Assembly: GCA_015689645.1 (NCBI GenBank)
Contig: WVSM01000016.1
Location: forward strand, 1 to 38,801
From: Rhodobacterales bacterium HKCCE4037
GTDB lineage: Bacteria > Pseudomonadota > Alphaproteobacteria > Rhodobacterales > Rhodobacteraceae
Direction: 5' to 3'
DNA: 38,801 nt
This document shows, in pieces, positions 6,423-30,016 of this stretch (its first letter is position 1; each line of letters starts with the position of its first letter). The position numbers and the translations under genes were made by a program. Under the pieces are notes generated by a model. That model was not told the origin of the DNA and ran no database searches. It was given only the letters and a program-made list of their open reading frames with translations.

Positions 6423-7910
6423 CTACCACCAACGCGCGGGCTTTTCCACAAAGCCGGCGGCGGATTCCAGCGCATAGGCGGTGTTCAGCAATTCCGCCTC
6501 CTCCCAGGGCCGTCCGATGAGCTGCAATCCGAGCGGCAGGCCGTTGCGGTCGATGCCGGTGGGCACCGCCACGCCGGGCAGGCCGGCAAGGTTCACCGTC
6601 ACCGTGAAGACGTCGTTGAGATACATCTGCACCGGATCGGAGACGTCCTGCCCAAGCTCGAACGCCGCCGAGGGCGTCGCAGGCGTCAGGATCGCGTCGA
6701 CCCCTTCGTGGAACACCTCGTCGAAGTCCCGCTTGATGAGCGCACGCACCTTGCGGGCGCGGTTGTAATAGGCGTCGTAGAAGCCCGCCGACAGCACGTA
6801 GGTGCCGACCATGACGCGGCGCTTGACCTCGTCGCCGAAGCCTTCGGCGCGGGTTTTCTCGTACATCTCGGTGATGCCGTCGCCCTGGGCGAGTTTCGCA
6901 CGGTAGCCGAAGCGCACGCCGTCGTAGCGCGCGAGGTTCGACGAGGCCTCCGCCGGTGCGATCACGTAATAGGCGGGTAGGGCGTATTTCGTGTGCGGCA
7001 GGGAGATATCGCGGATCTCGGCGCCCGCGTCTTTCAGCATCGCGGTGCCCTCGGACCAGAGCTTTTCGATCTCCTCCGGCATGCCGTCCATGCGGTATTC
7101 GGCGGGGATGCCGATGACCTTGCCCTTGATGTCGCCGGTCAGCAGGGCCTCGAAATCGGGCACGGGCAGATCGGCGGAGGTGCTGTCTTTCGGGTCATGG
7201 CCCATCATCGCCGCGCCCATGATCGCCGCATCGCGGACGGTCTTGGTCATCGGGCCGGCCTGGTCCAGCGACGAGGCGAAGGCCACGATGCCCCAGCGCG
7301 AGCAGCGCCCATAGGTGGGCTTCAGCCCCACGGTGCCGGTGAAGGCGGCGGGCTGGCGGATCGAGCCGCCGGTGTCGGTCCCGGTCGCGGCAAGGCAGAG
7401 GTCGGCGGAGACGGCAGCGGCCGAGCCACCGGAGGAGCCGCCCGGCGTCAGCGCCGCGTCGGAATTGCCCGCGCGCCAGGGGTTCACGGCATTGCCGTAG
7501 GTCGAGGTCTCGTTCGACGAACCCATGGCGAATTCGTCCATGTTCAGCTTGCCGAGCATCACCGCGCCCGCGTCGCGGAGCTGGCCCGAGACGGTCGATT
7601 CGTATTCCGGTTTGAAGCCTTCGAGGATCTTCGAGGCGGCCTGTGAGGGCACGCCCTCGGTGCAGAACAGGTCCTTGATGCCGACGGGAATGCCGCACAT
7701 GTCGGGCGCGTCCCCGGCCTTGATCCGGGCATCGGCGGCCTTGGCGCGGTCCATGGCGATCTCGGGCGTCTTGTGGACGAAAGCGCCGAGCGCGTCCGCC
7801 GCGTCGATGGCCGAAAGGCAGGCCTCGGTCAGTTCGACGGAGGTGACGTCGCCCTTGCGCAGCGCGTCGCGGGCCTCGGCGATGGTCAGCTTGTTGAGAT
7901 CGGACATCAT
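6423..7910 (-). CDS. gatA: Asp-tRNA(Asn)/Glu-tRNA(Gln) amidotransferase subunit A
   Basis: GatA is the glutaminase subunit of GatCAB. It releases ammonia from glutamine to amidate misacylated Glu-tRNA(Gln), and in some species Asp-tRNA(Asn). The 495-residue length is typical. The amidase-signature triad is complete: K79 in [11 protein letters not shown]159 in [15 protein letters not shown] and the nucleophile S183 in [15 protein letters not shown]; the 24-residue spacing between the serines is the same as in other amidase-signature enzymes. The start overlaps the gatC stop: the first of two consecutive ATGs (7910) forms ATGA with the gatC TGA, so the two genes are translationally coupled. gatB is not adjacent, which is common in alphaproteobacteria. 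Confidence 0.97.
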
Positions 7911-26598: not shown

Positions 26599-28611
26599 TC
26601 ACTCGGCGGCGTGCAACTGCCGGTCGCTCGTGGCGGTCCGGTCGCGGCTCGGGTCCGCGCCGCCGAACGCGCCGTGGCTGGTCTTGGCCCAGAAGAAGGG
26701 CCGGGCCAGGACTTCGGCCAATCCGATCCAGGCGGCGATGGTGCCGAACAGGTAATACGGCTCGATCAGCGGTGCGATGGGACGCAGGTGGCGCAGATGC
26801 GGCGCCCGGCAGGCATGGATCGTCACGGCCAGCGAAAGGACCAGACCCGAGAGCATGAAGCCGCCGAGGATCAGGTAGCCACGACCCGTCAGGACCGCGT
26901 CCATCGGGTGCCAAAGGCCAAACATCTTCACCCCGAAGCTCCACAGAAGCGGCGCGAGCAGGAAGCCGAGCACGGCGCCGAGGAACTGGACCTGGAGCGC
27001 CCAGAACCGTTTGGCCCCAAGCTCCCGCCAGAGGACGGAGGGTCGCCGCATCGCCGCGCCCCATGTCATGATGTAGCCCTTTAACCAACGGGAGCGTTGG
27101 CGGATCCACGGCAGGGGCGCGGCATTGGCCTCCTCGAAGGTGGTGGTGTCGACGATCTCGGTCGTGTAGCCCGCGCGCGCCAGCCTGAGGCCGAGTTCCG
27201 CATCCTCCGTCACGTTGTGGGCGTCCCACGCGCCGACCTCCTCCAGCACGTCGCGGCGCAGGAAGACGGTTGTGCCGCCAAGCGGCACGACAAGGCCGAG
27301 GCGCTGGACGCCGGGCAGAAGCACCCGGAACCACGCGGCATATTCCACGGTGAACAGGCGGCTCAGCCAGTTGTGGCGGGCATTGTAATAGTCGAGCCGG
27401 CCCTGAAGGCAGGCGACCTCGCGCGGGAGTTCGGCGAAGCGCTGCACGACACGGGCGATCTGGTCTGGTTCGGGCCGGTCCTCCGCATCGTAGATCCCCA
27501 CGATATCGCCGCGCGCATAGCTCAGCGCGTAATTCAGGGCACGGGGCTTGGTCCGGGGCGTGCCACGCGGGACCACGACGGCGCGCATCCAGGCGGGCAG
27601 GGTGCCGGTGCGCAAGGCCGACAGGGTCAGCGGGTCATCCTCTTCGATGGCGAGCAACACGTCGAGCCGTTCACGCGGGTAATCGACCTGCCGGAGCCGG
27701 TCTACCAGGGCGCCGGCCACCTCCGGTTCGCGGAACAACGGCACGATCATCGTCACGGTGGGCGGATGCAGGAAGCGGCTGCCGTGCCGGGGCGCTGCGT
27801 TCGGTGCCCCGGACCCGGCCCGTATCGCAGCGGCAAACGACGCCGTCTTCAACACCAGATTGACCGCGAAGACGAAGATCGCGAGGCCGAATGCCGCCAG
27901 GATCAGCGCCTGCGGCGCCAGCAGAAGCCCCAGAAGCAGGCCAAGTCCGAGAGCCGGGCCCCATAGGCCCATCGACGGGCCCTGCCAGTTGCGGCAGGAC
28001 TGGTTGGCGGGCGCGCGCCCCTCGGCCAGACGGGCGAGGCGGGGGCCATAGACGCGGCGCTGCGCCTCGATCACCTGGGCGCGCGATGCAAGCGCCATGA
28101 GAATGCGCGTATCCGCCGGCAGGCAGTGGCGCAGGTGTCCGATCCTGTCGGGGCGGCTGGTGGCCACGACGACCGCGGAGCCGCTGCGTTGCCAAAGGAC
28201 GGCTTCGTTCGCGATGGCGGCCTTGGCGGTCAGCAGCGTGGCGAGGGCGGGATCGGGGGCGGTCATGTCGAAATCGGCGAGGCCGACACCGTAGATATGG
28301 ACAAGGGCCGACAGCAGTTCGGCCTCGGAAACCGCACCATGGGTCATCAGGACCTGCCCGAGCGACAGCGACGTGCCCCGTTGTGCGCGTTCGGCACGTC
28401 TGAGCTGCGCCGGAGTGACCAGCCCTCGCATCAGCATAAGCGCCGCGAGCCGGCTCGCTTCATCATGCGATGTGCCCGTGGCCGGAGCGTGGGGCGATGG
28501 TGCGCCCCCTGCACCGACGCGCTGACCGTCCAGTGAGGCGATGGCCGGCGACCGCACCGGCAACCTGCGTTCAAGCGGTATGTCCCCGTCCAAGCTCTTG
28601 CCCCGTGCCAC
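26599..28611 (-). CDS. MshEN-like domain fused to GT2 membrane glycosyltransferase
   Basis: A 670-residue fusion. After a low-complexity N-terminus, residues 55-190 resemble the MshEN domain of type II secretion/pilus ATPases, a fold that binds c-di-GMP in several proteins: LMLMRGLVTPAQLRRAERAQ, then LSLGQVLMTHGAVSEAELLS. Two membrane helices follow (about 215-258). The GT2 domain covers 285-520 with the DxD-like YDAEDRP (D375, D378), TED at 468-470 and QRSRW at 505-509, the set seen in processive cellulose-synthase-like enzymes; further helices follow. It would polymerise or transfer a sugar at the inner membrane. The start is GTG at 28611. Three TTAA half-sites (CtrA-type) lie just upstream. 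XagB- or NfrB-like proteins are the nearest analogy I know. Confidence 0.85.
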   Translation of the reverse strand: MARGKSLDGDIPLERRLPVRSPAIASLDGQRVGAGGAPSPHAPATGTSHDEASRLAALMLMRGLVTPAQLRRAERAQRGTSLSLGQVLMTHGAVSEAELLSALVHIYGVGLADFDMTAPDPALATLLTAKAAIANEAVLWQRSGSAVVVATSRPDRIGHLRHCLPADTRILMALASRAQVIEAQRRVYGPRLARLAEGRAPANQSCRNWQGPSMGLWGPALGLGLLLGLLLAPQALILAAFGLAIFVFAVNLVLKTASFAAAIRAGSGAPNAAPRHGSRFLHPPTVTMIVPLFREPEVAGALVDRLRQVDYPRERLDVLLAIEEDDPLTLSALRTGTLPAWMRAVVVPRGTPRTKPRALNYALSYARGDIVGIYDAEDRPEPDQIARVVQRFAELPREVACLQGRLDYYNARHNWLSRLFTVEYAAWFRVLLPGVQRLGLVVPLGGTTVFLRRDVLEEVGAWDAHNVTEDAELGLRLARAGYTTEIVDTTTFEEANAAPLPWIRQRSRWLKGYIMTWGAAMRRPSVLWRELGAKRFWALQVQFLGAVLGFLLAPLLWSFGVKMFGLWHPMDAVLTGRGYLILGGFMLSGLVLSLAVTIHACRAPHLRHLRPIAPLIEPYYLFGTIAAWIGLAEVLARPFFWAKTSHGAFGGADPSRDRTATSDRQLHAAE

Positions 28612-28645
28612 TTTTTCTGACGGGACAAGTCTCGGGTGACGGGGG

Positions 28646-28671
28646 TTAACAACCGGTTAACAAGTGGTTAA
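28646..28671. promoter_or_regulatory. Three TTAA half-sites with 7-bp spacing (CtrA-type boxes)
   Basis: TTAA occurs at 28646-28649, 28657-28660 and 28668-28671, with exactly 7 bp between each, so two full CtrA sites (TTAA-N7-TTAA) overlap by one half. Each half-site is GTTAAC or GGTTAAC. They lie 35-60 bp upstream of the GTG of the MshEN-glycosyltransferase gene, where they would overlap its promoter. Confidence 0.7.
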
Positions 28672-28711
28672 CCGGGCCGCGAAAAATGGACGGACCGTGG
28701 AAGAGGTCCGA

Positions 28712-29869
28712 TCAGGCCGGGGTCTTGGCGTGCGCGCGGACGGCGTCCGCGAAGCGTTCGAACAGGTAGAAGCTGTCCTGCGGGCCGGGGCTGGCCTCGG
28801 GGTGATGCTGCACGCCGAAGACCGGCTTGCCATCGACGGCGATGCCGCAGTTGGACCCGTCGAACAGGCTCACATGCGTTTCGCTGACGCCCTTGGGCAG
28901 GGTCTGGCTGTCGACCGTGAAGCCGTGGTTCATCGAGGTGATTTCGACCTTGCCGGTGCTGAGTTCCTTGACCGGATGGTTGGCGCCGTGGTGGCCGTGG
29001 TTCATCTTGATGGTCTTGGCGCCGAGCGCGAGGGCGAGCATCTGGTGGCCGAGGCAAATGCCGAAGGTCGGCAGGCCCGCGTCCAGCACGCCCTGGATCA
29101 TCGGCACGGCATATTCACCGGTCGCCGCCGGGTCGCCGGGGCCGTTCGACAGGAACACGCCGTCGGGGGATTGCGCCAGAACCTCCTCCGCCGTGGCGGT
29201 GGCGGGCATCACCATGACGTCGAGACCCGCCGAGGCGAGGCAGCGCAGGATATTGCGTTTCGCGCCGTAATCGAGCGCCACGACCTTCGGCGCGGGGCCT
29301 TCCCGCTTCGTGTAGCCCTCGGGCCAGGCCCACCGCATCTCGTCCCAGCGGTAGCTCTGGGCGCAGGTCACGTCCTTGGCGAGGTCGAGCCCTTCGAGGC
29401 CCGAGAACCCGCGCGCGGCCTTGACCATCGACTCGATGTCGAAATTCCCCTCAGGGTCATGGGCCAGCGCCACGTGCGGCGCACCCTGCTGCCGGATCGC
29501 GCGGGTCAGCCGCCGCGTGTCCACGCCGCCGATGCCGATGCGTCCATTGGAGGTAAGCCAGTCGACAAGGTGCTTCTGAGCGCGCCAGTTCGACGGGTCG
29601 GTCACGTCCCACTTCACGACCATGCCCTCGGCGACCGGATCGGCGGTCTCGTCATCCTCGGCCGTGGTGCCGGTGTTGCCGATATGCGGGAAGGTGAAGG
29701 TCACAATCTGGCCCGCGTAGGACGGGTCCGTCATGATCTCCTGGTAGCCGGTCATGGCGGTGTTGAAGCACAGTTCGGCCACGCGCATCCCCGTCGCGCC
29801 GAAGCCGCGTCCGTAGAAGATGGTTCCGTCGGCAAGGACAAGGCAGGCGGTGGCATGGCTGTTCGGCAT
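28712..29869 (-). CDS. carA: Carbamoyl-phosphate synthase small subunit
   Basis: CarA is the glutaminase subunit of carbamoyl-phosphate synthase; it passes ammonia to CarB for arginine and pyrimidine synthesis. The 385-residue protein has an N-terminal CPSase small-chain domain (ACLVLADGTIFYGRGFGATG, NTAMTGYQEIMTDPSYAGQ) and a C-terminal class I glutamine amidotransferase domain. That domain holds the nucleophile Cys in FGICLGHQ and the His and Glu in HHPEASPGP. The start at 29869 (MPNSHATACL) is closer to the domain than an ATG at 29929. carB is not adjacent, as is common in alphaproteobacteria. It is divergent from the YqeY gene (147-bp gap). Confidence 0.97.
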   Translation of the reverse strand: MPNSHATACLVLADGTIFYGRGFGATGMRVAELCFNTAMTGYQEIMTDPSYAGQIVTFTFPHIGNTGTTAEDDETADPVAEGMVVKWDVTDPSNWRAQKHLVDWLTSNGRIGIGGVDTRRLTRAIRQQGAPHVALAHDPEGNFDIESMVKAARGFSGLEGLDLAKDVTCAQSYRWDEMRWAWPEGYTKREGPAPKVVALDYGAKRNILRCLASAGLDVMVMPATATAEEVLAQSPDGVFLSNGPGDPAATGEYAVPMIQGVLDAGLPTFGICLGHQMLALALGAKTIKMNHGHHGANHPVKELSTGKVEITSMNHGFTVDSQTLPKGVSETHVSLFDGSNCGIAVDGKPVFGVQHHPEASPGPQDSFYLFERFADAVRAHAKTPA

Positions 29870-30016
29870 GGGGGCGGCTCCGTTGGTGGCAGGCAAGCGG
29901 GCAAACTTCCGGGGGTTTATGGCGGGCACGGGCGGGGGTCAAGCCGCGCCTTGCGCCCGTGCCTCGCCACGCCTATCTAGGCGCCTTCGACATACCGTAG
30001 GATTGAGGGCCCGACC

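Follow-up and report, generated by a model that had tools for sequence, protein, structure and literature searches.

A conserved CtrA-type promoter box between carA and a predicted membrane polysaccharide synthase gene in Rhodobacteraceae

Cellulose synthase BcsA and the hyaluronan synthases share the processive GT2 membrane-synthase fold, which in BcsA is accompanied by a PilZ domain. The predicted glycosyltransferase (GT) considered here resembles them in fold, while having an MshEN-like domain in place of PilZ. Another relative is the c-di-GMP-activated MshEN glycosyltransferase NfrB of E. coli, likewise combining GT2 and MshEN domains and possessing DxD, TED and QxxRW-type motifs, from which our protein differs by the N-terminal instead of C-terminal location of MshEN and by the lack of the fully conserved c-di-GMP motif present in NfrB (PMC8669469). 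Its gene also neighbors carA instead of forming an operon with nfrA, and the protein attains 25.2 with the NfrB model, whose cut-off is 1170. On the side of regulation, the closest counterparts are fla2 promoters of Rhodobacter sphaeroides, described as having a CtrA site that ends 23–24 nt before the transcription start and A at −11 (PMC6180460); the locus analysed here is similar in the presumed distance (24 nt), unlike them in preceding a non-flagellar gene, in having a predicted start and in bearing three tandem half-sites. The CtrA regulon of Dinoroseobacter shibae, with TTAA-N7-TTAAC located before CtrA-relay genes, is paralleled by boxes near chpT-, cckA- and divL-like genes in the genome studied here, and the word stem “glycosyl” is absent from the main text of that regulon paper (PMC4046655).

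The window, i.e., the whole analysed stretch of 38,801 bases, contains nine TTAA tetranucleotides, three of which (28646-28649, 28657-28660, and 28668-28671) are separated by gaps of exactly 7 bp. The sequence-only reading had taken them for two overlapping sites, and precisely these two, 28646-28660 and 28657-28671, were returned by the exact TTAA-N7-TTAA search of the window, as compared to none in 100 dinucleotide-preserving shuffles. Both are assigned to the minus strand: the gene-proximal one (28646..28660), supported by exact search and conservation, occupies the position conserved in the family, and the distal one (28657..28671), adding the third half-site, is shared within the genus only with genome G012 (locus L031). 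All half-sites fall into the intergenic DNA separating the end of carA, encoding the small subunit of carbamoyl-phosphate synthase (28712..29929, minus strand) and being the upstream neighbor, from the minus-strand gene of a 664-aa MshEN-GT2 membrane glycosyltransferase (26599..28593). TTG at 28593 is regarded as the probable start of the latter because orthologues have a common (A/G/T)TG-GA(C/T)-GG start, and the alternative GTG at 28611, first in the frame, was set aside. We assign a probability of roughly 0.85 to the reading that the three half-sites serve as an operator for CtrA in the promoter of a gene encoding a membrane polysaccharide synthase.

All 13 genomes of the genus carry the GT gene, which is interrupted in G009, and so do 221 of the 248 family genomes taken one per genus. 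Outside the genus, the box was searched for in 69 other genera, a sample composed of 29 loci and the next 40 by E-value with two skipped, hence of high-scoring genomes rather than random ones. In 65 of them carA adjoins the GT gene upstream; the exact TTAA-N7-TTAA is found between carA and GT in 56, and with at most one mismatch it is found in 67, the box being absent even at one mismatch in L080 and L127, and likewise in L179. Any other spacer from 2 to 15 bp gave at most three genera with exact and at most 16 with one-mismatch pairs. DNA between genes tends to be richer in AT than the genes themselves, and on this ground one might suppose that the pattern is accidental or a by-product of base composition, but 200 single-base shuffles of the gaps produced the exact box in 0.035 of the 69 genera on average and in two at maximum versus 56 observed, which, along with the rarity of other spacers, leaves such an origin a negligible probability. 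In 39 loci, 32 exact sites were registered within 6,485 bases of carA-GT gaps and none within 226,437 other, mostly coding, bases. Ten further named Rhodobacteraceae, possibly overlapping with other sampled genomes, contained the exact box in nine cases and, if one mismatch is permitted, in all ten. As for relatives outside the family, which are 27–49% identical and may not be orthologues, the exact box was found in 0 of 24 and the one-mismatch variant in 2 of 24; the idea that the box is a property of the GT gene wherever it is present was rejected on the absence of exact sites there. The splitting of the gene in G009 is due to an insert of about 4 kb (L018:5360-9347) leaving one GT piece on either side and containing two ORFs, a transposase-like one (6594-7562), probably of the IS1595 type, and a probably RhuM-like one.

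Conservation of the three half-sites among related genomes, by which the sequence-only reading proposed to check its claim, was confirmed for the box as such and not for the triple. With the window included, every one of the 13 genomes of the genus contains the box at no more than one mismatch; it is exact in two and represented by TTTA-N7-TTAA in 11. One-mismatch pairs with spacer 6, likewise seen in 11 of 13, are the same site, since TTTAC can be read with a one-base shift. The exact triple is limited to 2 of 13, the window itself and G012. Over the 92 upstream regions, triple half-sites were revealed in seven, two of them within the genus (the window and G012) and five in other genera (L099, L134, L137, L139, and L142), and if the 67 regions with an exact pair are considered, these seven compare with 0.27 expected from composition. 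Beyond the 92 regions, L175 has three and L147 four TTAA in register. The triple is a recurrent elaboration, and the state conserved throughout the family is the single box.

Alignment of promoter regions anchored on the proximal TTAA (77 rows from outside the genus, of 90 in total) disclosed a sole clear column apart from the box and flanking C positions, that is, A at +16, occupying 68% of the 77 rows and carrying 0.71 bits; weaker columns were represented by A at +17 and T at +20/+21. The window is off the consensus, having its own A at +17. For CtrA-activated promoters of R. sphaeroides mapped by 5′-RACE, the distance from box to start is given as 23 or 24 nt with an invariant A at −11 (PMC6180460), and the conserved A past the box fits this geometry. 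If it is taken as −11 of the −10 element (28632..28633, minus strand, where 28633 corresponds to consensus +16 and 28632 to the window’s A at +17), the start would lie 24 nt past the box end; for the window, with its A at +17, the start is predicted near 28621..28622 on the minus strand and the GT leader to be about 28 nt long. The same geometry bears on the supposition that CtrA binds here as a repressor, so that no polymer would be made in the active state of CtrA. In favor of such a role, polysaccharide and motility are commonly controlled in opposite directions. Repression by CtrA has been reported where a half-site overlaps the −10 region (PMC6180460), but the placement of the conserved box with respect to the conserved A corresponds to that of activated promoters, the box not covering −10, which makes repression improbable.

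CtrA is encoded on contig C1 of the window’s own genome (3.84 Mb in 36 contigs) as follows from the Pfam match, its best solved relative being PDB CtrA 4qpj (E=1.7e-51). The genome contains 38 exact TTAA-N7-TTAA sites versus 18 for the reversed pattern, and pairs of TTAA with all spacers from 0 to 24 taken together number 83 versus 336 for the reversed pattern, with a possible undercount of overlapping pairs; N7 is thus the dominant TTAA spacing genome-wide, accounting for nearly half of all pairs. A one-mismatch N7 site located 70 bp ahead of the ctrA ATG (L048:996-1010) is compatible with autoregulation. Among 27 candidate proteins scanned downstream of other N7 sites, 19 had a Pfam match, and the boxes neighbor genes for a ChpT-type histidine phosphotransferase, a CckA-like PAS-HisKA kinase, and a DivL-like PAS protein, which from these domains we presume to be chpT, cckA, and divL. 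Many other boxes are followed by no obvious CtrA target, some by no assigned downstream gene. Exact N7 sites at position 1801 of L069, L056, L059, and L067, adjoining a GT2_4 glycosyltransferase, an HWE kinase/pnp pair, a cold-shock gene, and a DUF1127/MFS pair, may mark further targets.

The TTAA-N7-TTAA element might be read here by some regulator other than CtrA, as the genome encodes 10 further proteins matching Trans_reg_C (one of them below the cut-off) and genome G196 has the box with no detectable CtrA; the spacing, however, coincides with the one published for CtrA and applied to D. shibae (PMC4046655), and boxes also occur near CtrA-relay genes, so that this supposition looks very improbable. 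CenR, one other envelope regulator compared, was discarded as the reader of the box by its published motif, TGA-N8-TGA (PMC9275681). The CtrA-type pattern pointed out by the sequence-only reading is, in turn, well supported by the family-wide box, the dominance of N7, the encoded CtrA, and the fitting promoter geometry. The motif, its conservation, the A at fixed distance, and the presence of CtrA are observed; binding, activation, and cooperativity at the box are inferred. Phosphorylated CtrA would bind TTAA-N7-TTAA at the −35 region and help RNA polymerase to start about 24 nt downstream, and the synthase would be made while the CckA-ChpT-CtrA relay is active. In the lineage of the window, the third half-site, placed one helical turn upstream, may admit a second, cooperative CtrA dimer.

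The distribution of both genes over the family gives weak support to the CtrA reading. CtrA was detected at E<=1e-80 in 225 of 248 family genomes, and their partition into those with GT and CtrA (215), GT only (6), CtrA only (10), and neither (17) is non-random (Fisher p=8e-15), as it is for 215 good genomes (195, 2, 4, and 14, respectively; p=1e-16), unlisted absences being deduced by elimination and genomes being non-independent. In the six GT-bearing genomes where CtrA is missing at this threshold, the exact box is found in five. One of them, G196, is 99% complete with the best CtrA match only 36% identical, yet GT and the exact box are kept (L176, L183). Fragments of CtrA are present in G018 (86% identity) and G169, and the four GT-only genomes besides G196 and G018 are 62–87% complete. 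In G178 and G228 the exact box follows carA, and the lack of GT is due only to the contig terminating shortly after carA; these are the only two with the exact box after carA among 19 rows lacking GT in the carA tree. That tree includes 22 of the 30 genomes asked, in which carA was found, and many of its rows are long branches. Its 14 rows without GT and CtrA are scattered (5 label changes versus a shuffled mean of 5.4, set against only the 6 rows of the other groups), some labels being imprecise: those of G245, marked as having CtrA with none found, of G169, which has a fragment, and of a second G196 row. G213, where neither CtrA nor GT was found, is placed near G196 at an open fork.

The product of the gene was modelled by AlphaFold2 with mean pLDDT 86.1 and pTM 0.85. 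The model contains the GT2 domain at residues ~278-515 (PF13641 match at residues 278-505; 27079..27762, minus strand), flanked on both sides by long helices which may be read as membrane helices, and an MshEN-like part that is helical in 42-101 and mixed in 115-191. The best fold matches are hyaluronan and cellulose synthases with 13–20% identity in the ten best, and, according to the model, the protein has the processive GT2 membrane-synthase fold. Synthase motifs are retained among 78 proteins almost without exceptions (DAED and TED in 77 each, Q(Q/R)xRW in all), and surface polysaccharide is a plausible product of the modelled enzyme.

That this product carries an MshEN-like domain was part of the sequence-only reading and agrees with the Pfam match to PF05157 (31.6 bits versus a cut-off of 23.1) and with the similarity to 5htl, a domain of MshE (E=2.3e-6); the domain is placed at residues 42-191 of 664 (28021..28470, minus strand). 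The same reading went on to propose that the synthase is controlled doubly, by CtrA at transcription and by c-di-GMP via this domain, for which NfrB offers a precedent of a c-di-GMP-activated MshEN glycosyltransferase (PMC8669469). The NCBIfam model of the c-di-GMP motif scores 35.9 bits, below the cut-off of 38. The ligand is described as held by a motif pair of the type RLGxx...LxxxLxxQ (PMC5013675), at the place of which a degenerate 53-residue stretch is found in the window protein (residues 48-100; 28294..28452, minus strand). Its 24-5-24 spacing is kept, and motif I retains R1, L2, and Q24, having A at position 3 and E at position 21; motif II retains L2, G3, and L21, having S at position 1 and I at position 24. 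Gly3 of motif I together with Arg1 and Gln24 of motif II are replaced in 12 of 12 proteins of the genus. Substitution of several residues of this kind is said to have cost GspE of Xcc17 its binding of c-di-GMP (PMC5013675), which speaks against c-di-GMP control here. In 42 other proteins of the family, Gln24 is kept in 21 for motif I and in 34 for motif II, Arg1 in 5 and 19, respectively, and some members, e.g., Poseidonocella L020, have a near-canonical motif. With the residues lost in the genus and partly kept in the family, control by c-di-GMP appears doubtful: it is unlikely in this genus and possible elsewhere. Sensing of c-di-GMP by the MshEN-like domain, as suggested by the sequence-only reading, is consequently not supported in this organism, and dual control of this synthase is rather unlikely; the domain probably serves regulation or assembly and would no longer bind c-di-GMP well in the genus.

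Taken family-wide, the data make it very likely that a conserved CtrA-type promoter drives an uncharacterised polysaccharide synthase, which, judging by comparison of genomes, is probably a core CtrA target in Rhodobacteraceae. The carA-linked GT is named as a CtrA target nowhere among the literature matches listed, and earlier mention may exist elsewhere, for example, in the CtrA-regulon papers PMC7167476 and PMC2876497 or in supplements. More tentatively, one may picture a nearly universal carA-linked CtrA target producing a surface polymer that goes with the CtrA-associated lifestyle of motility, gene transfer, and algal contact, with MshEN as an allosteric c-di-GMP switch operating in some genera and decayed in others, where CtrA would then be the main control. 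If true, the regulator of motility and gene transfer of a large, mostly marine family would be tied to a specific surface polymer. In D. shibae, c-di-GMP was described to rise in the cascade of CtrA and quorum sensing, with no PilZ-domain gene identified according to that report (PMC6473078). In genera retaining the MshEN motif, the MshEN-GT2 protein may be regarded as a concrete candidate for the c-di-GMP effector.
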